From positions 1 to 34,954 of the forward strand of contig JAJYPS010000017.1 in the NCBI GenBank assembly GCA_021795215.1: a stretch of 34,954 bases of DNA, written 5' to 3'. This DNA is from Actinomycetes bacterium (GTDB lineage Bacteria; Actinomycetota; Acidimicrobiia; Acidimicrobiales; JAKAOS01). The notes under the pieces are model-generated. The model did no database searches and was not told the origin of the DNA. It saw nothing but the letters and a program-made list of their open reading frames with translations. This document shows positions 22,466-34,311 of this stretch, in pieces; within the stretch, counting starts at the first letter, position 1; each line of letters starts with the position of its first letter. Both the position numbers and the translations under genes were made by a program.

Positions 22466-22542
22466 GGGCGCTTAGCTCAGTTGGTTAGAGCGCAGCCTTC
22501 ACACGGCTGAGGTCGGAGGTTCGAGTCCTCTAGCGCCCACCA
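22466..22542 (+). tRNA. tRNA-Val (anticodon CAC)
   Basis: The acceptor stem GGGCGCT pairs fully with AGCGCCC. The D arm is GCTC/GAGC, and the anticodon stem CAGCC/GGCTG closes loop TTCACAC, giving anticodon CAC (valine, codon GUG). The T loop is TTCGAGT. The discriminator A is followed by an encoded CCA. A TATGGT hexamer lies 12 bases upstream and may be its -10. The 281 bases before the tRNA contain a 10-bp tandem repeat (ACGGGCGGGC twice) but no gene. Confidence 0.95.
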
Positions 22543-22584
22543 GGGAGTTCTCTCCCCAGCAGAGGCTCGTGTGGCTACATGTGC

Positions 22585-22602
22585 TACGCTCACTGCGTGA
22601 GC
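22585..22602 (+). promoter_or_regulatory. Candidate vapB -10 and operator at the start codon
   Basis: TACGCT (22585-22590) lies six bases before the GTG at 22597, the spacing expected for a leaderless transcript. GCTCAC-TGC-GTGAGC (22588-22602) is a perfect inverted repeat spanning that start. An operator here would let the VapBC complex repress its own promoter, as is common for these systems. Confidence 0.45.
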
Positions 22603-22842
22603 GATTCGATCTCGGTGCGGGAGTTGCGTAACACGGTCAGCGAGGTGCTTCGCCGGGTCGAAAGCGGAGAACGTCTCACCGTGACGGTCGACCGCCGGCC
22701 AGTGGCCGAGATCGTGCCAATGCGGCGCCGCAGGAGAGTGCCTGCCGGTGAAGCCCTCGGCATCGCTGCGCGCTATGCTTCAGACCCTCGGCTGCTCGAT
22801 GACGTGCGTGAGCTGTTGTCCGATTCGACGGACGAAGCGTGA
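22597..22842 (+). CDS. vapB: Antitoxin, Phd/YefM-like, of a VapBC pair
   Basis: The start is taken as GTG 22597 (VSDSISVRELRNTVSEVL); the ATG at 22579 adds six unconvincing residues. The 81-residue protein opens with the Phd/YefM DNA-binding fold (ISVRELRNTVSEVLRRVESGERLTVTVDRRPVAEIVP) and ends in an acidic region (LLDDVRELLSDSTDEA), the usual toxin-wrapping segment. It would neutralise the downstream PIN toxin and bind its own operator. The stop overlaps the toxin start in GTGA, so toxin translation depends on antitoxin translation. It lies about 55 bases after tRNA-Val(CAC). Confidence 0.9.
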   Translation: MSDSISVRELRNTVSEVLRRVESGERLTVTVDRRPVAEIVPMRRRRRVPAGEALGIAARYASDPRLLDDVRELLSDSTDEA

Positions 22843-23222
22843 GGGCGTTGCTCGACACGTCCTTCTTTGTCGCCAACGAGGCGGGGCGACCCCTGGGCGA
22901 CATGGCTGGCGTGACGGAGACCGAGGTGTCTGTCGTGACGCTGGCGGAGCTCACGGTCGGGGTGCTGATGGCTGGCGACACCGAGCGTCCGGACCGGGTG
23001 GCAACCCTCTCGGCCGTCGAGTCGACTTGGGATCCGCTGCCAGTCGATGCCAATGTGGCGCGGCAGTTCGCGCGTATCGTTGCAGAGCTGCGGGGTCGTC
23101 GTCGGAGAGTGCCGATTCTCGACGCGCTTGTGGCGGCCACCGCTGCGGTGGAGCAGATTCCTGTGGTCACTCAAGACCGGGACTATGGAGCGATTCCAGG
23201 GTTGGAAGTCATTCGAGTCTGA
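22839..23222 (+). CDS. vapC: PIN-domain ribonuclease toxin VapC
   Basis: The 127-residue PIN domain has the expected acidic active-site residues: Asp in LLDTSFFV, Glu in LAELTVGVL, Asp in ILDALVAATA and Asp in TQDRDYGAI. VapC toxins cleave specific RNAs, often initiator tRNA or 23S rRNA; the target here is unknown. All catalytic positions are present, so it is probably active. The GTG start overlaps the antitoxin stop by four bases. A hairpin follows the stop codon and may end the transcript. Confidence 0.92.
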   Translation: MRALLDTSFFVANEAGRPLGDMAGVTETEVSVVTLAELTVGVLMAGDTERPDRVATLSAVESTWDPLPVDANVARQFARIVAELRGRRRRVPILDALVAATAAVEQIPVVTQDRDYGAIPGLEVIRV

Positions 23223-23258: not shown

Positions 23259-23296
23259 GGAAAGAGCCAGTGCATGCTGCGTGGACGGCGGGCAAT

Positions 23297-23302
23297 TACG
23301 TT
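23297..23302 (+). promoter_or_regulatory. Candidate -10 element for leaderless bioF
   Basis: TACGTT fits TANNNT and ends seven bases before the ATG at 23310. No Shine-Dalgarno is seen upstream of that ATG. No clear -35 is visible. Confidence 0.35.
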
Positions 23303-23309
23303 CGCGACC

Positions 23310-24530
23310 ATGAGAACGTCGCCGGCTCCGAGCGCCGGCGTGCCGTCGCGGGGGGCTTTCGGCTGGGTGGAGGATTCGCGGCGACGCCTGGATCGGGCCG
23401 GCCTCGGTCGCCGGACCACCCGGAGGGTGCGGGGCGGCTCCGCCGTGGGCGGCTCCGCCGTGGGCGGCTCCGCCGTGGTCGGCTCCGCGGTGGTCGACCT
23501 GTCGACGAACGACTACCTGGGCATGTCTGCAAGGCCGGAACTGGTGAGGGCGTCGGCGGAAGCGGCGGAGCGTTTCGGCACCGGCGGCCGCGCTTCCCGG
23601 GTGGTCTCCGGAGGCTGCTCCGTTCACGAAGAGCTGGAGGACGCCCTGGCGGCATTCTGCGGCACCGAGGCGGCGTTGGTGTTCAGCTCCGGCTACCTGG
23701 CCAACATCGGGGCGCTGACGGCGCTGTGCCGTCCCGGTTCGCTGCTGGTATGCGACGAGTCGAACCACGCTTCGCTGATCGACGGGGGCCGGCTCTCGGG
23801 AGCGGAAGTGGTCGCAGTGGCCCATGCAGATCCGGCTGCAACCGCCGTGGCGCTGGCGCAGAAGGGGGCCCGGCGGGCCGTGTACGCCACGGAGTCGGTG
23901 TTCTCGGTGGAAGGGGACGCGCCGCCTCTGCCCCCCTTCCTCGACGCGTGCCGCTCGGCGGGAGCCGGGATGGTGGTGGACGACGCACACGGGTTCGGGC
24001 TGGTCGGCCCCGGTGGTCGCGGGTCGCTGCGGGCCGCTGTCGGCTGCCAGCCCGATGTGGTCGGCGTGGTGACTCTCGGAAAGGCGCTGGGCTCGCAGGG
24101 AGGGGCGGTGGTGGGCACGAGGCAGGTGATCCGGTACCTGGTCAACGTGGCGCGCAGTTTCGTGTTCGATACCGCTCTGGCTCCCCCTTCTGCTGCCGCT
24201 GCCCTGGCCGGACTATCCATTCTCCGGCGGGAGCCGGAACGGTCCCGGCGTGTGCTGCACCTGGCGACCAGGATGGCGGAACTGCTGGCAGACGCGCGTC
24301 TGCCGGTGAGCCGTCCAGGGGCGGCTGTGATGTCGGTGCGCTCGCCTTCGGCCAAGTCCGCCGTGGAGTGGGCTGGCAGGTGCGCCGAGAGAGGGGTCCT
24401 GGTCGGCTGCTTCCGGCCACCGGCTGTGCGGGACGGGATCTCGCGCATCCGCCTCGGGGTCCATGCGGCGCTCTCGGACAGGGATGTCGAACGAGCGGCG
24501 AGCGTGATCGTCGCCACCCGCCCCTGTTGA
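23310..24530 (+). CDS. bioF: 8-amino-7-oxononanoate synthase (BioF), alpha-oxoamine synthase family
   Basis: BioF condenses L-alanine with pimeloyl-ACP or -CoA, using PLP, to start the biotin bicycle. Family features run the full length: STNDYLGMSARPELV, GTGGRASRVVSGGCSVHEELE, the PLP-stacking SNHASLIDGG, the aspartate-histidine pair VVDDAHGFGLVG, and the Schiff-base lysine in TLGKALGSQGG. The late motif FRPPAVRDGISRIRLGVHAAL matches the RPPTVP block of true BioF better than serine palmitoyltransferase or glycine C-acetyltransferase, as I recall them. Length is 406 residues from ATG 23310. The N-terminal linker holds a repeat-encoded GGSAV array. The TGA stop overlaps a TTG in the frame of the next gene (TTGA), linking it to a P450 and an ACP. 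Other biotin genes are absent from the window. Confidence 0.87.
   Translation: MRTSPAPSAGVPSRGAFGWVEDSRRRLDRAGLGRRTTRRVRGGSAVGGSAVGGSAVVGSAVVDLSTNDYLGMSARPELVRASAEAAERFGTGGRASRVVSGGCSVHEELEDALAAFCGTEAALVFSSGYLANIGALTALCRPGSLLVCDESNHASLIDGGRLSGAEVVAVAHADPAATAVALAQKGARRAVYATESVFSVEGDAPPLPPFLDACRSAGAGMVVDDAHGFGLVGPGGRGSLRAAVGCQPDVVGVVTLGKALGSQGGAVVGTRQVIRYLVNVARSFVFDTALAPPSAAAALAGLSILRREPERSRRVLHLATRMAELLADARLPVSRPGAAVMSVRSPSAKSAVEWAGRCAERGVLVGCFRPPAVRDGISRIRLGVHAALSDRDVERAASVIVATRPC
23433..23492. repeat. 15-bp tandem repeat, four units, in the bioF linker
   Basis: GGCGGCTCCGCCGTG is present in three perfect copies plus one diverged copy. It encodes GGSAV-GGSAV-GGSAV-VGSAV between the N-terminal helix and the STNDYLG core. 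The period keeps the frame. Confidence 0.92.
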
Positions 24531-25801
24531 GTCCCGGGTCGTGCCCCGGCGCCCCCTCGCCGGTTGCTCCGTCCCAGGTTCCGGGGCACACGCCCGACCT
24601 GCTCGGGCAAGACGTGGCGATGGACCCGACCGTGTTGCGGAAGTTCGGCTCCCGGCCCTGGCGGGACCCGGCGACCGGCCTATGGGTGTTGTCCGGCTAC
24701 CGAGCAGTGAGAGCGGCGCTGGAGGATCACGACACGTTCCGCCCGGACAACGTGCTGGACGCGTTGGCGAGCCTGGACTGGGCGTCGAAGCGTGAGCTGG
24801 CGAAGGTTCGCTTCAATCTCCCTCCGACGCTTGCGAACAACTCTTCGGACAGCCATCCGGGGCTGCGGAAGCTGGCATCACGCTTCGTCGGCGGCGCTGC
24901 GGCGAGCCGGGCATCGGAGCGGGTGGCAGACCTTACCCGGTCGGCGCTGGACCGCTTGGAGCAGGAGCTCGATCTGACCGGGTCGGCGGACATGGTGGAG
25001 GTCGTGGCTCGGGACGTTCCCTCCAGGGTGATCCTCGAGGTGCTGGGCCTGTCGCCGGTGGAGCCGGAGCAGCTGGCTCGATGGACGTACGCGTCACTGG
25101 AGCTCTTCTGGGGCATGCCCGACGCCGGGCGTCAGCTGGAGCTCAGCCGTGCCGCGGCCGAGTTCTACGCGTGGATCTGTGAACAACTGTCGCGGTCACG
25201 GAGCGACGAAGGCGACTCCCTTGCCGGGGCACTGCGCGCTCATCGCAAGCCCTGCGGCAGCCGTCTCGGCGCTGCGGAGAAGGCCGCGACGACGTACTTC
25301 TTGATCATCGCGGGACACGTCACCGTGAGCCAGATGCTCAGCATCGCGTTCTCCCGCCTCGTCGCATCGCCCTCCGCCTGGCGGGAGCTCTCGGCAACTC
25401 CCGATTCGGTCGGGCTGGTGGTCGAGGAGCTGCTGCGCTCCGACACGCCGCTTTCGACCTGGCGGCGGATCGTCTCCGAAGCCGTCCGCGTGGAAGGGGT
25501 GGACATCCCTGCCGGGGCACCGGTGCTGCTCGCACTTGGCGCCACAGGCCACGACCCGAACACGTTCGCCGATCCGGGACGCTTGTGCCCCGGTCGCCGC
25601 GACGGGTGGGCTCACCTGGCGTTCGGCTCCGGAAGGCACAGATGTGCTGGAGCTTCTTTTGCACGGATGGAGCTGGCCACGGTGCTGTCTGTCGCAGCAG
25701 CACGCCTGCCCGACCTTCGCATTGTCCGCAGCCCGGCCGTGCACTGGTCTTTTCTGTCGTTCCGGGCCCCCAAGCAGGTGCTGGTCCGGCGGGGCCCGTA
25801 G
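24527..25801 (+). CDS. Cytochrome P450, possibly BioI-like
   Basis: This is a soluble bacterial class P450 of about 424 residues from TTG 24527, or 394 from ATG 24620; either is near the family norm. The heme-binding loop is FGSGRHRCAGASFAR, with Cys as the iron ligand. The K-helix motif is EELLRSDTPLSTWRR. The I-helix is FLIIAGHVTVSQML, where the usual acid-alcohol pair is replaced by His-Val-Thr. No membrane anchor is present. It follows bioF with a four-base overlap if the TTG is used and precedes an ACP gene. Bacillus BioI (CYP107H1) cleaves ACP-bound fatty acids to pimeloyl-ACP for BioF, so this neighbourhood suggests the same role. That is inference; an unrelated oxidation of an ACP-bound substrate remains possible. 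Confidence 0.88.
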   Translation: MSPGSCPGAPSPVAPSQVPGHTPDLLGQDVAMDPTVLRKFGSRPWRDPATGLWVLSGYRAVRAALEDHDTFRPDNVLDALASLDWASKRELAKVRFNLPPTLANNSSDSHPGLRKLASRFVGGAAASRASERVADLTRSALDRLEQELDLTGSADMVEVVARDVPSRVILEVLGLSPVEPEQLARWTYASLELFWGMPDAGRQLELSRAAAEFYAWICEQLSRSRSDEGDSLAGALRAHRKPCGSRLGAAEKAATTYFLIIAGHVTVSQMLSIAFSRLVASPSAWRELSATPDSVGLVVEELLRSDTPLSTWRRIVSEAVRVEGVDIPAGAPVLLALGATGHDPNTFADPGRLCPGRRDGWAHLAFGSGRHRCAGASFARMELATVLSVAAARLPDLRIVRSPAVHWSFLSFRAPKQVLVRRGP

Positions 25802-25850
25802 GGCGCAGCGGCGACGACAGCGCAAGGTCACCGGTGGCGGTGGCCGCCGC

Positions 25851-25856
25851 TATTTT
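25851..25856 (+). promoter_or_regulatory. Candidate -10 element for leaderless ACP gene
   Basis: TATTTT ends six bases before the GTG at 25863. It is the most AT-rich hexamer in this stretch, and there is no Shine-Dalgarno. Spacing fits a leaderless start. Confidence 0.45.
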
Positions 25857-25862
25857 CGGGCC

Positions 25863-26180
25863 GTGCCCGACGCTCGACCGACTCGTCCGCAGGGCGTTCC
25901 GGCCGCGGGGCCGCACGGGACCATCTCCGGACGGCCGGCCACCGGTGAGGTGTTCGAGACGGTGAGCCGGTGCGTGACGGAGGTGCTGGAGGTCGATGCG
26001 GCGGATGTGAACCCCGACGCACGTTTCGCAGAGGACCTATCGGCCAACAGCCTGACGTTGATCGAGGTGATGATGGCCTTCGAAGAGGCGTTCGGCATCG
26101 AAGTGAGGGAGGCCGACGTGGCGGGCGTGGCGACCGTCGGGGACGCCTGTGCGCTCGTCTCTCGACTGCTCGAACAGTGA
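25863..26180 (+). CDS. Acyl carrier protein
   Basis: The GTG at 25863 gives 105 residues. The first 25 form a Pro/Gly-rich leader and the rest is a four-helix ACP: VFETVSRCVTEVLEVDAADV, then DARFAEDLSANSLTLIEVMMAFEEAFGIEV, then ATVGDACALVSRLLEQ. The attachment serine for 4'-phosphopantetheine sits in ANSL, where most fatty-acid ACPs have DSL. Such a protein would present an acyl chain to a partner enzyme, here plausibly the adjacent P450. It is 61 bases after the P450 stop and may also be expressed from its own leaderless promoter. It is not near fatty acid synthase genes, which argues for a dedicated carrier. Confidence 0.88.
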   Translation: MPDARPTRPQGVPAAGPHGTISGRPATGEVFETVSRCVTEVLEVDAADVNPDARFAEDLSANSLTLIEVMMAFEEAFGIEVREADVAGVATVGDACALVSRLLEQ

Positions 26181-26460: not shown

Positions 26461-28057
26461 ATGGCCAGCGCGGTGTCGGTGAGGGACCTGCTCGACAATC
26501 ACGTGGTCTTGGATCTCGAGTGCCTGGATCGGCTCTACCTGAACGCCCTATGTCCCGAACTTGCAGGTGAGCGGGCAGGTGGTCACCTTCATGCGCGATC
26601 ATCTGCGCTGCCCGATCCCTTCCCCGGCGATCATGACCAGGATCGGCGAGCGGTTCCGCGCCGCGGTGACGGCGTTCGCCGAGTCGGCGGACATCCCGGT
26701 GATCCGCTTCAAAGCCGATGACCGCCAGATCGACTTGGCCCGGCCCTACTGGCAACGGGCGACCGGGCCGGGGGTGGTGGCCATCGGGGTGGCACAGGAG
26801 TTCCAGCGGGTCTTCACCGCCCACCAGCGTCCGACGCGCGACCCCAGCGTGAAGCTGTTCGGGTTCGACAAGGCCGACCGGCGAGTCACCGTCTATTACT
26901 TCTATGTCCTCGACGCCGACTTCGGGCCCGGGTTCATCAAGATCTGCTCGTACTTCCCCTACCCGGCGAAGGTGTGGGTCAACGGGCATGAGTGGGCGAA
27001 GCGTCAGGCAGCCAAGGCCGGGATCGGCTTCGCCGAGCTGGCCAACGGGTTCGCCAGCTGCGACGATCCGGTCGGCCTGCAGACGACCTGCGACCAGCTC
27101 GGTCCAGCCCACATCCAGGTGTTCTTCGAGCGTTGGCTACGGGCCATCCCGACCCCCCTCGACGAGATCGACCGAGCAGCGGGCTACTGGTGGGAGCTGG
27201 CGATGCGCCAAGTCGAGATGTCCCGCACGATCGTCTTCGACGCGCCACGCCGTGCCCGGGCGTTCTTCGAGGCGACGGTCGCCGACAACATCGACGTGGG
27301 CCGCCCCGACGAGATCAAGGTGATCTTCGACCGCCAGACCCGCTCCAACACCAAAGGCGAGTTCGCCACCAAGGTCGTCACCCGAGGCACCGACGTGACG
27401 ATCAACGCCTTCTACAAGCACTCACGGATCAAGGAATAATACCTGAAGCAAGGTTGTGCGCTTCGAATCGAGACCGTCGTCAACTCGCCCACCGACTTGG
27501 GCTGCCAGCGACGCCTCATCAATCTCCCCGAGCTCCAAGCCAAGGCCCGAGCGGCCAACCGCCGCCTGCTCGAGGTGCAACGTGCCGGTCAGGGCTGTGC
27601 CATCGAGACCGCTCTGTTCGAGCGGATCTCACAGCCCTCGCTCGAGGAGGGCCAACGAACCGGAGCCTTGCGCTTCGGGGACCCACGCGTCATGGCCCTG
27701 ACCGGCGCCCTCTGCGTCGCCCTGGTGGCCACCGTCGGCTTCACCAACAAGAGCCTTCGCGCCTTGGTGAGCAGCCTGCTCGGTGCCCCCTACGGTCCCG
27801 CGCAGATGACCTATGACCTGCGGCGACTCCGGCTCAAAGGCCTCGTCGTTCGGGTCCCGCACTCCAACACCTACACCCTCACCACCGACGGGTTGAAGGC
27901 AGCGATCTTCTACACCAAGCTCGACCGCCGTCTCCTCCGCCCCCTTCTCGCCGCCGACCAACCCCCTGCTCCAGCGCCACTACGGGCGGCTCTCGCGACG
28001 ATCGACAAGACGTGCACCGACTACATCGCTCGCGGCCGGTTAGCGCCCGCCGCGTGA
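26461..28057 (+). pseudogene. Broken copy of a large conserved actinobacterial protein with C-terminal winged helix
   Basis: Three consecutive ORFs join into one protein of about 530 residues. The first piece (ATG 26461, MASAVSVRDLLDNHVVLDLECLDRLYLNA) leaves frame at a CCC run at 26546-26548. Removing one C restores LNAYVPNLQVSGQVVTF and the long central ORF. That ORF stops at an in-frame TAA (27437-27439) after FYKHSRIKE, but the same frame continues YLKQGCALRIETVVNSP to a proper stop at 28057. I remember related full-length actinobacterial proteins that read LYLNxYVPNLQ and SRIKQYLK at these points. The central part is a conserved block (FIKICSYFPYPAKVWVNGHEWAKRQ). The last 150 residues look like a winged helix (GPAQMTYDLRRLRLKGLVVRV). 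Function is unknown and nothing proves mobility; no inverted repeats were found around it. Confidence 0.8.
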
Positions 28058-29560: not shown

Positions 29561-30106
29561 GTGAGCGACGAGGTCACCCACGGGAACGCAACCCCGGACG
29601 CTGCCGTGATCGGCGACACGGCCAACGAGCGGGTCCCATGGCAACGGTTCAGTCTGCTGGCGGTCGGGATGGCGGCAACATATGTCGTGGTCATTGGGGT
29701 GCCCACCGCTATCATCCCGAACCCGCTGTTCCACCGGATGATCTCCGCCGGGGCTTGGAACTACATGGCCTGGCTGCTCCCCGCCGCTCTGTTCGGTCCG
29801 CTGGCGGCCACCTTCTTGGTGCCCTGGCCGCAAACCTGCCGAGTCGACCGCCGACTCGGTGCTGGCGGGCTGGCATCGTTCCTGGCGGTGGGTTGCCCGG
29901 TGTGCAACAAGGTGGTCGTGCTCGCCGTCGGGGTGAGCGGCGCCCTCGACTACTACCGCCCCCTCCAACCTCTCCTCGGAGGGCTGTCTTTCGCCCTACT
30001 CGGCGTGGCCCTGTGGACGCGGTGTCGGACCAGGCCCGTCGCCCTTCGCGCCCGACCCGGCGCTCCGGCCGGCCTCTGTGCAGACGCGGACCCCAGGCCT
30101 CGATGA
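29561..30106 (+). CDS. Polytopic membrane protein with a CPVC motif, unknown function
   Basis: The GTG at 29561 gives 181 residues with four or five hydrophobic segments: FSLLAVGMAATYVVVIGVPTAII, MAWLLPAALFGPLAATFLVPW, LASFLAVGCPVCNKVVVLAVGVSGAL, and LLGGLSFALLGVALW. The CPVCNK motif lies at the start of a membrane helix. It resembles a CxxC redox or metal site and recalls vitamin K epoxide reductase and CcdA arrangements, but it matches neither family as a whole. A third cysteine is in WPQTCRVD. The stop overlaps the Sco gene start (ATGA). The neighbours (Sco, CcdA, TlpA) suggest membrane thiol transfer or metal handling; I cannot assign a reaction. Confidence 0.82.
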   Translation: MSDEVTHGNATPDAAVIGDTANERVPWQRFSLLAVGMAATYVVVIGVPTAIIPNPLFHRMISAGAWNYMAWLLPAALFGPLAATFLVPWPQTCRVDRRLGAGGLASFLAVGCPVCNKVVVLAVGVSGALDYYRPLQPLLGGLSFALLGVALWTRCRTRPVALRARPGAPAGLCADADPRPR

Positions 30107-30852
30107 GCACCGCTGCCGAGCCGTCCACGACCCAGGAGCGTCCGCAACGGCAAGCCCAGCCGCTCCTGCCACGCTGGGTGAGCTTCGGAGTGATGCCCTT
30201 CGCTCTCGCCGCTGCGATCTCGATGGCGGCGAGCGCCTACCTCTACGTCCATGCGCGCAACGCCGCGGCGGTCCCGAGCCCCATGGTGCAGCTGATGGGC
30301 CTCTCCGACGGCTCAGGGCACCCCGCCCCCGGCTTCACGCTCACCGACCAGCACGGCCGGCCGGTCTCGCTTTCGAGCTTCCGGGGCAAAGCGGTCCTGG
30401 TCGCCTTCATGGATTCGCGCTGCACCCAGGTGTGCCCGGTGCTCGCCCAGGAGTTCCTCCTCGCCCAGCACGACCTCGGCCGGGCGGCCCCCCACGTCGC
30501 GTTCGTCGGTGTCAACGTCGACCCGATGGGTGAGTCGGTGGCAGCCGTCGAGCACTTCACCCAGCTCCACGGCCTCTCCCGGCTGCCCAATTGGTACTTC
30601 CTCACCGGGCCGACCGCCGCTCTCAAAGCGGTGTGGAGCGCCTACGGGATCCAGGTGTTCCTCCCCAAGGGCGCCACCCAGACCGTGCACGCCGACTACT
30701 TGTACTTCCTCGGCCCCCACGGGCGCGAACGCTACATAGCGAGCCCCCAGGTCGACCAACGCAAGAACGGCACCGGCTACCTCCCCCAGAGCGACCTCAA
30801 CAAATGGGGGCGGGGCATCGCCACCTACCTGCGCCGGTCGCTCGCGAAGTGA
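30103..30852 (+). CDS. SCO1/SenC-family copper chaperone or thiol reductase
   Basis: Sco proteins are membrane-anchored thioredoxin-fold proteins outside the cytoplasm that bind copper and help build the CuA centre of cytochrome oxidase, or act as thiol reductases. The protein has 249 residues. A single anchor is at about residues 26-50 (WVSFGVMPFALAAAISMAASAYLYVHA), then PGFTLTDQHGRPVSLSSFRGK begins the fold. The CxxxC site is in DSRCTQVCPVL, and the distal histidine is in VHADYLYFLGPHG, so the Cys2-His copper site is complete. The start overlaps the upstream gene by four bases. Presence of ctaA elsewhere in the window is consistent with a heme-copper oxidase in this organism, though the two loci are far apart. 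Confidence 0.9.
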   Translation: MSTAAEPSTTQERPQRQAQPLLPRWVSFGVMPFALAAAISMAASAYLYVHARNAAAVPSPMVQLMGLSDGSGHPAPGFTLTDQHGRPVSLSSFRGKAVLVAFMDSRCTQVCPVLAQEFLLAQHDLGRAAPHVAFVGVNVDPMGESVAAVEHFTQLHGLSRLPNWYFLTGPTAALKAVWSAYGIQVFLPKGATQTVHADYLYFLGPHGRERYIASPQVDQRKNGTGYLPQSDLNKWGRGIATYLRRSLAK

Positions 30853-30896
30853 CCCGCCTGGCTCTGCCCGAGCGGACCCGAAGGTAGGCGAGGCCG

Positions 30897-31622
30897 GTGT
30901 CACCGCTGTTGCCGCTGCTCGCCGTCGTCGCCGGGATCCTGTCGTTCAGCTCCCCGTGCGCGTTGCCGCTCATCCCGAGCTATCTCTCCTACGTGTCGGG
31001 CCTGCCCATCTCCGAGCTCGACCACCGACAGGCGACACCGCTCGTGCTGCGCTCGTCGCTGGCCTTCGTCGGCGGGTTCACAGTCGTGTTCACCGCGCTC
31101 GGCGCGTCGGCCACCCTGGTCGGCTCGCTGCTGCTGCGCAACCTGCCGGTCATCTTGGACGTCGCCGGGGTGTTCATCATCGTGCTCGGCCTAGCCTCCG
31201 CGGGACTGCTGCGCGTCCCGTTCCTCGCCAGGGAGCGACGCTTCGACCTCTCCCGGGTCCCCAAGGGACCCAAAGGGGCGTTCCCGTTGGGCATGGCGTT
31301 CGCTTTCGGCTGGACGCCTTGCATCGGCCCGGTCCTCGCCACTGTGCTAGCCGTCGCCAGCGCCACCAACACGGTCCTGGACGGAGCGGTGCTCTTGGCG
31401 TTGTACTCCCTCGGTCTCGGGCTGCCCTTCCTCGCCCTCGCTGTCGGGTTCTCCCGGGCCCGGACCTCGCTGTCCTGGCTGCGCCGCCACGGCCGGGCGA
31501 TCGAGGTGGCAGGCGGCCTGCTGCTCGTCGCCGTCGGCGTCATGTTCGTCACCGGAGAATGGAAAAGCCTTTTCATCCCCCTCCAAGCCCGCTTCGCCCG
31601 CCTGGGATGGCCGCCACTGTGA
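30897..31622 (+). CDS. ccdA: Cytochrome c biogenesis/thiol-reduction membrane protein CcdA
   Basis: CcdA carries reducing equivalents from cytoplasmic thioredoxin across the membrane to extracytoplasmic thioredoxin-like proteins. The 241-residue protein has six hydrophobic segments and both redox cysteines in their usual proline-rich settings: SFSSPCALPLIPSYLSY in the first segment and GWTPCIGPVLATV in the fourth. The GTG at 30897 follows a GGCGAGG ribosome site. The gene overlaps the start of the first TlpA-like gene, which is the expected electron acceptor. Together with Sco and a second TlpA it forms a complete extracytoplasmic thiol-reducing branch. Confidence 0.93.
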   Translation: MSPLLPLLAVVAGILSFSSPCALPLIPSYLSYVSGLPISELDHRQATPLVLRSSLAFVGGFTVVFTALGASATLVGSLLLRNLPVILDVAGVFIIVLGLASAGLLRVPFLARERRFDLSRVPKGPKGAFPLGMAFAFGWTPCIGPVLATVLAVASATNTVLDGAVLLALYSLGLGLPFLALAVGFSRARTSLSWLRRHGRAIEVAGGLLLVAVGVMFVTGEWKSLFIPLQARFARLGWPPL

Positions 31623-32302
31623 CCACTGAGCATCTTGACCAGAAGCCTGGAAGCGACCAGCCAGTCACTCCGGACGCGGCGACGCCCGTTCGCTGGCGTG
31701 CCGGGAAGCGATGGTGGGCACTTGCTGCCGCCGCGGTGGTGGTCGGCTCGCTCACCGGGGTGACCGCCTCGTACCTGGCCAGGCCGAGCACCACGTTGCA
31801 CGCCACCTCCAACAAGATCATCACCTCCACCGGCGGGGTGTTCACGAAGGAGACTGGCCAAGTAGCCCCGGTCTGGTCGCTGCCCGACCTTCGCAACCCT
31901 TCCACAGCCGTGGCACTAGCCCAGTTCAAAGGGCACCCGGTCGTGGTGAACTTCTGGGCGTCGTGGTGCCCGCCGTGCCGCAAGGAGATGCCCGCCTTGG
32001 AGGCCACCGCCCGGCGTCTCGCCGGCAAAGTCGACTTCGTCGGTGTCGACACCAACGACAAGCGCAGCGCAGCGCTCAGCTTCGCTGCCAAGACCGGGGT
32101 CTCCTACCCCCTCGTCTTCGACCCTCGCTCAAAGGTCGGCGGAAATTACGGCGTCTACGGGTTGCCCACCACGTTCTTCGTCTCTGCCCAAGGCAAGCTC
32201 CTCGGGCGCCAGGTAGGCGGCATGACCGAACAGCGACTGGCCCAGCTGATCAACCAAACCTTCAAAGTGCCGGTAGCGGCCAGGGCGGGATCACCGGGAT
32301 GA
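31607..32302 (+). CDS. TlpA/ResA-like membrane-anchored thioredoxin, CPPC type
   Basis: The ATG at 31607 gives 231 residues; a GTG at 31619 overlapping the ccdA stop (GTGA) is an equally good start. One anchor, WWALAAAAVVVGSLTGVTASYL (about residues 36-57), is followed by a thioredoxin domain. The active site is VVNFWASWCPPCRKEMPALEA and the cis-proline is in YGLPTTFFVSAQG. CPPC is shared with TlpA/ResA proteins that reduce apocytochrome c or copper-site cysteines, including those of Sco. It probably receives electrons from CcdA just upstream. Its stop overlaps the next TlpA gene by four bases. Confidence 0.92.
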   Translation: MAATVTTEHLDQKPGSDQPVTPDAATPVRWRAGKRWWALAAAAVVVGSLTGVTASYLARPSTTLHATSNKIITSTGGVFTKETGQVAPVWSLPDLRNPSTAVALAQFKGHPVVVNFWASWCPPCRKEMPALEATARRLAGKVDFVGVDTNDKRSAALSFAAKTGVSYPLVFDPRSKVGGNYGVYGLPTTFFVSAQGKLLGRQVGGMTEQRLAQLINQTFKVPVAARAGSPG

Positions 32303-32913
32303 CTCTCAGACTCAGGCAGTCCCGAGGTGGCGCTCGGAAGCTGATGCTCGTGACCAAGGTCGCCCTTGCTGTAGGCGCTGCGCTCGGGATGCTCGCAGCC
32401 TTCGCGGTTCCCAGACCGGGAGCGACCAGGTCACCGCCGCAACCATCCCAGCCCCAAGGCCCGCTCAAGAGCATCTCAGTTCTCCCCACCAAGGTTGACC
32501 GACCCGCGCCAGGCTTCATTCTCCCGCTCTTGAACGCCCATGGCACCCAAAGCCTCACTTCACTGCGGGGAAAGGTCGTAGTGCTCAACTTCTGGGCAAG
32601 CTGGTGCGTGGCCTGTCGAGCCGAGGCACCTCAACTCGAGGCGCTGTGGCGCCGCTATCGCCGCCGGGGAGTGGTGTTTCTCGGCGTGGACGTCAAAGAC
32701 ACCGCTCCGGCTGCCTCTGCCTTCGCCCGCCGGTACGGGGTGACCTACGCGAGCGTCGTGGATGCTGCGGGGTCCACGACAGCCACGTACGGGATACTGG
32801 GGCTCCCGGATACGTACATCGTCGACCCACACGGCAACATCCGCTTCATCATCATCGGCGAGATCGACCCCGCTTCGTTCCGCTCGGCCCTCGATCGGGT
32901 TCTAGCGTCGTGA
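32299..32913 (+). CDS. TlpA-like membrane-anchored thioredoxin, CVAC type
   Basis: This second thioredoxin-fold protein has 204 residues. An N-terminal anchor (LVTKVALAVGAALGMLAAFAV) follows basic residues. The domain shows APGFILPLLNAHGTQSLTSLRGK, active site VVLNFWASWCVACRAEAPQLEALW, and cis-proline in YGILGLPDTYIVDPHG. CVAC differs from the CPPC of its neighbour and should change the redox potential, so the pair may have different partners or work in sequence. Start and preceding stop overlap as ATGA. A 63-base gap separates it from the permease. Confidence 0.92.
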   Translation: MTLRLRQSRGGARKLMLVTKVALAVGAALGMLAAFAVPRPGATRSPPQPSQPQGPLKSISVLPTKVDRPAPGFILPLLNAHGTQSLTSLRGKVVVLNFWASWCVACRAEAPQLEALWRRYRRRGVVFLGVDVKDTAPAASAFARRYGVTYASVVDAAGSTTATYGILGLPDTYIVDPHGNIRFIIIGEIDPASFRSALDRVLAS

Positions 32914-32976
32914 TACCGGACCCGGAACAGCCAACGACATCGCCAGCAGCCGCTGGCACTGTCTCTGGAGGCTGAC

Positions 32977-34311
32977 GTGCTCATGCGGGTGCTGGATGCG
33001 TTGGGTCACGCGCTGGCAATTGCCGCTTCGATGACCTGGGAGATCCTCTGGGCGCTGATCTTGGGCTTTGCGCTGTCCGGGGTGGTCCAGGCACTGGTCC
33101 GTAAGTCCACGATCGTGCGCCTGCTCGGCGACTCCTCGCCCCGCACGCTGGTCATGGCTTCCGGGCTCGGTGCCGCCAGCTCTTCCTGCTCCTACGCTGC
33201 GGTCGCACTGTGGCGCACGCTCGTCCGCAAGGGAGCCGACTTCACTGCGGCGATGGCCTTCGAGATCGCCTCCACCAACTTGGTGGTCGAGCTCGGGATC
33301 ATCCTCGCGCTGTTGCTCGGCTGGCAGTTCACGCTCGCGGAGTTCGTGGGCGGGCCGCTCATGATCGCGTCAGTCGCCGTGCTGTTCAGGTTATTCCTGC
33401 GAAGCCGACTGCTCGACGGCGCCCTCCGCCAAGCGGACCTTGGGCTCGCGGGCTCGATGGAGGGCCACGCCGGAATGGACATGTCGGTTACCGGGGAGGG
33501 CGGCCTGTGGGCCCGGCTGCGCTCCCCCGAGGGCCTGACCGCTGTCTCGCACGTCTTCGTGATGGAGTGGGCCGCGGTGCTGCGAGATATCGTGGGCGGC
33601 CTGCTCATCGCAGGCGCGCTCGCTGCATGGGTACCGGACGCCTTCTGGCAGCACTTGTTCTTCACCGGCCACCCCTTGGCCGCGAAGTTGTGGGGTCCGC
33701 TCATCGGGCCGGCGATCTCTGTGGTCGCCTTCGTATGCAGCATCGGCAACGTGCCGCTGGCCGCTGTGCTTTGGAACGGCGGTATCAGCTTCGGCGGCGT
33801 CGTGTCGTTCATCTTCGCCGACCTGATCATCATCCCGATCCTGTCGATCTACCGGAAGTACTACGGCACCCGCATGACCGCTTTCATCTTCGCCACCTTC
33901 TACGCCACGATGAGCCTCGCTGGGTACCTCGTAGAGATCATCTTCGGAGGCGCGGGCATCGTGCCGACAGCGCGCAGCGCTCATGTGATCGAAGCTCATA
34001 TCTCGCTGAATTACACAAGCGTACTGAACATCATCTTTCTCGCATTGGCGGCCACATTGGTGTGGCGCTTCGTGCGTACCGGCGGCATCGGCATGCTTCG
34101 AATGATGGGTGGTGCCCCCAGTGGCGAGCCACAGAACATGTCCGCGATGAACCACGGCGAGGTGATGCCGGGTGGCAATGGTCACCACGGCGGCGGTGGC
34201 CACAGCGTGCCAAGCGATAGCGGCACCGATGGAGAGGATGTGGACCGCGCGGGCGACCTGCCGAACGGCGGCAGCGAGCCAGACGAGCGGCACGGCGGGA
34301 AAGGCGCATAG
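32977..34311 (+). CDS. DUF318-type permease with Met/His-rich segments
   Basis: GTG 32977 follows GGAGG by five bases. The 444-residue protein has about eight hydrophobic segments in two halves, as in the UPF0718/DUF318 permeases that include ArsP. The signature region GLGAASSSCSYAAVALWRTLVRKGADFTAAMAFEIASTNLVVELG holds a conserved-looking cysteine. The second half has FVCSIGNVPLAAVLWNGGISFGG. Two segments look metal-binding: MEGHAGMDMS in the central loop and MSAMNHGEVMPGG plus HHGGGGH in the long hydrophilic C-terminal tail. Export of a soft metal or metal-organic species is a reasonable guess; arsenic, copper and others cannot be told apart. It closes the redox module. Confidence 0.85.
   Translation: MLMRVLDALGHALAIAASMTWEILWALILGFALSGVVQALVRKSTIVRLLGDSSPRTLVMASGLGAASSSCSYAAVALWRTLVRKGADFTAAMAFEIASTNLVVELGIILALLLGWQFTLAEFVGGPLMIASVAVLFRLFLRSRLLDGALRQADLGLAGSMEGHAGMDMSVTGEGGLWARLRSPEGLTAVSHVFVMEWAAVLRDIVGGLLIAGALAAWVPDAFWQHLFFTGHPLAAKLWGPLIGPAISVVAFVCSIGNVPLAAVLWNGGISFGGVVSFIFADLIIIPILSIYRKYYGTRMTAFIFATFYATMSLAGYLVEIIFGGAGIVPTARSAHVIEAHISLNYTSVLNIIFLALAATLVWRFVRTGGIGMLRMMGGAPSGEPQNMSAMNHGEVMPGGNGHHGGGGHSVPSDSGTDGEDVDRAGDLPNGGSEPDERHGGKGA

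Follow-up and report, generated by a model that had tools for sequence, protein, structure and literature searches.

The pimeloyl (seven-carbon) unit of biotin is made differently among bacteria. In Bacillus subtilis, the cytochrome P450 BioI (CYP107H1) is encoded in the bio operon and has been captured in P450-ACP structures (3ejb/3ejd/3eje); the same organism also has BioW, and to our knowledge no acyl carrier protein (ACP) is dedicated to BioI. The B. subtilis BioF cannot use pimeloyl-ACP (review PMC11089781). The mkp cluster of Streptomyces makes alpha-methyl-KAPA, and deletion of mkpC, mkpD or mkpG abolishes the product (PMC13336041, 2026), showing that the two partners of this P450/BioF pair can serve a single pathway. 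In that publication the P450 MkpG is called “homologous to BioI”, and its text mentions neither Saccharothrix nor Kribbella. The acidomycin P450 is part of a different cluster (PMC13111796).

Gene structure of the bioF-P450-ACP triad

The window, which denotes the whole 34,954-nucleotide stretch of DNA analyzed here, is contig C151 of a 2.6-Mb metagenome-assembled genome (MAG; 152 contigs, 92.7% complete) and encodes a BioF, a P450 and an ACP side by side (Table 1). TIGR00858 (bioF) is the top NCBIfam model for the window BioF at 341 bits, against a model cut-off of 426 that is passed by none of 59 genomes in the order and none of 30 actinomycete genomes. Together with this best model, the PLP lysine in TLGKALGSQGG and the DDAH and NHASL motifs identify the protein as a BioF (KAPA synthase), and it is the only BioF detected in the whole MAG. 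Repeats are present in its N-terminal linker (Table 1), and QGSPAP repeats lie near the N-terminus of the BioB of the same genome (L043).

Table 1. Positions of the triad genes and of segments within them, numbered from the first letter of the window.
Feature	Position	Strand	Remarks
bioF	23310..24530, or 23274..24530 with earlier start	+	Intact frame; best NCBIfam model TIGR00858
15-bp tandem repeat	23432..23491	+	Unit GGCTCCGCCGTGGGC; encodes GSAVG repeats, BioF N-terminal linker
Cytochrome P450, actinobacterial BioF-linked family (MkpG clade)	24527..25801	+	TTG start in TTGA overlap with bioF stop
P450 I-helix segment IAGHVTV	25307..25327	+	Val at acid position, neighboring Thr kept
Acyl carrier protein, MkpB-like	25863..26180	+	Likely start GTG 25863; carrier domain from ~25947

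The four-base overlap between bioF and the P450 gene, recorded in the initial annotation, is indeed present (TTGA, 24527-24530) and needs a TTG start for the P450. The TTG is a plausible start, being the sole in-frame ATG/GTG/TTG upstream of an N-terminal stretch common to the relatives of the P450; ATG 24620 lies within that conserved stretch. PF00067 matches the P450, which retains the heme motif FGSGRHRCAG, and its AlphaFold model (pTM 0.80) predicts a normal P450. The ACP described as following the P450 is likewise found, as an intact frame ending at 26180 on the + strand, and matches PF00550 plus an ACP subfamily model above cut-off (Pfam, NCBIfam). Its phosphopantetheine Ser lies in SANSL, in which the Asp of the usual DSL is replaced.

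Directly upstream of bioF, the window carries a tRNA-Val (cac) followed by a Phd/PIN toxin-antitoxin pair (22466-23222); no flanking repeat marking this region as an island was found. Downstream of the ACP, a 292-aa open frame (26561-27439) has no Pfam or NCBIfam match, and apparent SCO1-like and CcdA-like proteins, a pair of TlpA-like thioredoxin proteins and one permease were recognized by eye at 30078-34311.

Relatives of the triad and linkage of the P450 family to bioF

The three proteins share common descent with MkpB, MkpD and MkpG. Specifically, the window P450 falls in the MkpG clade in two trees (support 100/96 and 98/97), the window BioF has MkpD as its sister in two trees (99/96 and 94/94) and is distant from the BioFs typical of its own order, and the ACP shares 62-63% identity with two MkpB proteins versus 50% with the housekeeping ACP of its own genome. 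The P450 and BioF trees are concordant on the placement of the window. The P450 branch is long (1.24), and a position nested in the MkpG clade and one sister to it are both tenable (AU p = 0.079). Residues separating mkp from biotin-linked types were rejected as a discriminator, being few and mixed (three mkp-like and two biotin-like in BioF, two of each in the P450).

The I-helix was said to lack the acid-alcohol pair, which is half right: the acid is lost (AGHVTV), but the Thr is retained. The further suggestion that this loss suits C-C cleavage does not hold, as the acid is kept both in BioI (AGHETT) and in the biotin-operon relatives (AGQETT), and we therefore rejected acid loss as a mark of such chemistry. 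The acid is missing in the window P450 and MkpG and retained in the biotin-operon P450s and the bioF/P450 pairs of Pseudonocardiaceae. However, it is also missing in P450s that are linked to bioF but fall outside the mkp clade (L127, L137, L138 and L159), so its loss does not discriminate between biotin and alpha-methyl-KAPA.

Among 397 genomes of the same order, the P450 family occurs only in the window and in one further genome (G032), the next match falling from 676 to 229 bits and lacking the family signatures. In G032, the P450 is the last gene of a bioB-bioA-bioF-bioD-P450 operon on a 7.3-kb contig that also encodes a transposase-like protein. A near-identical contig exists in a Nocardioidaceae MAG, and the operon clusters with Kribbella. 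It may be misbinned or transferred and was set aside as same-order evidence. Near-identical bioB-A-F-D-P450 operons are seen on short contigs of two differently named MAGs: L044 (G032:C65), equal to L175 in record length, and L174. One of them neighbors a transposase-like gene, and the operons reflect either misbinning or a mobile biotin operon.

One scan across named genomes of bacteria and archaea, with only the P450 as its seed, gave 80 loci, and in 40 of them a BioF is encoded within ~8 kb of the P450. At ~3 bioF-family genes per 8 Mb, fewer than one such locus is expected by chance, the loci not being independent of each other. The linkage of this P450 with bioF is family-wide and takes three recurrent arrangements: bioAFD-P450 with bioB nearby in Kribbella, with a similar set in a MAG (L119); divergent bioF/P450 pairs in Saccharothrix, Streptoalloteichus, Allokutzneria, Crossiella, Umezawaea and others; and the mkp cluster of Streptomyces, which includes a BioF, a ketosynthase and an ACP, its loci having been identified as mkp by species, gene content and gene order as in PMC13336041 and not by accessions. 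About 34 more loci, nearly all from Streptomyces, encode a solitary family P450 with no BioF nearby. The solitary P450s among L120-L172 (mostly Streptomyces; for example, L131:8001-9209) have an AGQSTT I-helix and occur in many Streptomyces, of which they may be an unlinked biotin P450; P450s of this type lie opposite bioF in L127, L137, L138 and L159. Additionally, five P450s close to MkpG (L099, L102, L105, L108 and L163) have an AGQATT I-helix; the flanking sequence retrieved for them showed neither a BioF nor an ACP.

As a test of primary function, bioF-family hits were counted in 15 Pseudonocardiaceae and three Kribbella genomes and the extra hits read. Many of these proved to be glycine C-acetyltransferases, sharing 61-66% identity with E. 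coli Kbl, and the remainder are distant alpha-oxoamine synthases with at most 43% identity to KAPA-type BioFs; the P450-linked BioF is therefore the sole KAPA-type BioF in all 18. In contrast, Streptomyces has a separate primary bioF opposite bioBAD, without the P450. A literature search found no publication on the Pseudonocardiaceae bioF/P450 pairs or the Kribbella bioAFD-P450 sets; with subscription journals mostly outside its coverage, it also returned nothing that places this P450 family in primary biotin synthesis, nor any account of actinomycetes making biotin for primary metabolism by a P450 route.

A candidate front end for biotin synthesis

The remaining biotin genes named for checking, bioA, bioD and bioB, are all present in the MAG. 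bioA (521 bits) and bioD (99 bits) lie side by side on contig C27 and bioB (331 bits) on contig C48, all above cut-off. BioW and BioC were to be checked for absence; in the 92.7%-complete MAG, BioW has no match and no BioC reaches its cut-off, the best candidate being a methyltransferase at 57.7 bits versus 185, and a bioF or bioC may possibly have been missed at this completeness. The BioB is of the ordinary type (56-60% identity, versus 37% to the S. lydicus mdb type). BioA was rejected as a sign of an mdb-type cluster, as it is equally close to the Streptomyces primary and mdb BioA. The tetranucleotide pattern of the triad is closer to the genome's own contigs than to the Streptomyces loci, which gives no sign of misbinning or very recent import and led us to reject a recent transfer from Streptomyces. 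Two genomes of the same family lack a BioF match at E 1e-40, and neither has a bioB above cut-off. A P450 sharing a contig with bioB (G018) is unrelated (24% identity, ~4.6 kb away), and the bioA-bioD pair (L097:1990-6722) lies, by eye, beside apparent cytochrome c oxidase genes and insertion-sequence fragments.

Taken together, the sole BioF found, the presence of bioA, bioD and an ordinary bioB, the failure to find a BioW or a BioC above cut-off, the lack of an MkpC beside the triad and the linkage of the P450 family to bioF, sole BioFs and bio gene sets across Actinomycetota suggest, at the level of sequence, that the triad is probably a dedicated front end of biotin synthesis, providing a P450 route to pimeloyl-ACP. 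We infer its substrate, cleavage position, ACP dependence and product as follows. An acyl chain would be built by a type II fatty acid synthase, of which the one FabF-like ketosynthase of the genome (encoded elsewhere) would be part, and loaded on the ACP of the triad; the P450 would bind this acyl-ACP and oxidize it at carbon 7, by C7-C8 cleavage or terminal oxidation, yielding pimeloyl-ACP; BioF would condense pimeloyl-ACP with L-alanine to KAPA; and BioA, BioD and BioB, from two other contigs, would complete biotin. The P450 would thus work like BioI, yet it represents a separate P450 lineage. The initial annotation had called this a BioI-type route, and its P450-ACP-BioF pimeloyl logic is supported, but the assignment to the lineage of CYP107H1 is not.

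What counts against the biotin reading is that all three genes group with mkp genes, whose tested product is alpha-methyl-KAPA and not KAPA. The secondary-metabolite alpha-oxoamine pathway raised at the outset accordingly takes a concrete form: the triad, like mkp, would convert a branched acyl-ACP into 6-methylpimeloyl-ACP and condense it with alanine to this biotin antimetabolite. The clade shared with MkpG, the sister relationship to MkpD, an ACP nearest to MkpB and the I-helix acid lost in common with MkpG all point this way. However, the essential ketosynthase MkpC does not adjoin the triad, and its only match in the genome (55%) lies on C136 in a fabG-acp-fabF group; mkp-carrying Streptomyces also have a separate primary bioF alongside bioBAD, and no such second copy turned up in the MAG, so that bioA, bioD and bioB would be left without KAPA; the BioB is not of the mdb type; and acid loss extends to bioF-linked P450s outside the mkp clade. 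We consequently rank alpha-methyl-KAPA synthesis below biotin and regard it as unlikely, though a serious contender.

Two further explanations fare worse. BioF could be an ordinary KAPA synthase beside a P450 and an ACP that are decaying or belong to an unrelated pathway, with the pimeloyl unit coming from an undetected route. The long P450 branch, the unusual AGHVTV I-helix and the incompleteness of the MAG would fit, but an open P450 frame with its heme cysteine motif and an AlphaFold pTM of 0.80, a P450/BioF partnership conserved across families, and the failure to find BioC or BioW in the MAG make this quite improbable. A Bacillus-type BioI proper, acquired horizontally along with its BioF, is very unlikely. 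The two P450s share a fold (among the PDB matches, BioI comes up only from rank 13, TM 0.79 by query, behind CYP116-type P450s and CREJ as the closest solved structures), and both are associated with bioF, here with an ACP nearby. Nevertheless, BioI, compared as a B. subtilis sequence identical to PDB 3ejb over 394 residues, is only 27% identical to the window P450, lies outside the well-supported family clade and lacks the family signatures LANNxxxxH and SLELFWG; a profile of the family comes closest to CREJ and CYP116-type P450s, and the inability of the B. subtilis BioF to use pimeloyl-ACP also argues against such an origin. The window P450 was therefore rejected as a BioI orthologue.

Beyond this locus, we see about an even chance that many Actinomycetota start biotin with a non-BioI P450 family of their own, of separate origin and partnered by BioF (and by a dedicated ACP in the lineage of the window), which was later copied in Streptomyces for alpha-methyl-KAPA antimetabolites, the window being a relative from primary metabolism. 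The P450-BioF linkage is a concrete candidate that can be tested in culturable Kribbella, Saccharothrix or Allokutzneria. It also suggests that mkp, whose antibiotic product targets the making of biotin, has its origin in a module for making biotin, and a natural P450/ACP/BioF unit might serve biotin engineering.

Comparison with described systems

Compared with BioI from the B. subtilis bio operon, the window P450 is likewise encoded with bioF, yet it belongs to a distinct lineage and has lost the acid that BioI keeps in AGHETT. The Pseudonocardiaceae pairs and Kribbella sets share with the window the same P450 family (~38-48% identity), the same broad BioF clade and a P450-linked BioF that is the only one of KAPA type; unlike the window, they have no ACP detected alongside, their P450s carry AGQETT, and their genes are divergent pairs or lie within bio gene sets. 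The closest characterized relatives are MkpD, MkpG and MkpB of Streptomyces virginiae / S. avidinii / S. lydicus, with which the window shares the P450 signatures, an MkpB-type ACP without the Asp of DSL and an acid-less I-helix. In contrast to mkp, however, the window triad has neither an adjacent MkpC nor other mkp genes, is arranged co-directionally in the order bioF-P450-ACP with bioF and the P450 gene overlapping, and contains the sole BioF of a genome whose order lies outside Streptomyces.
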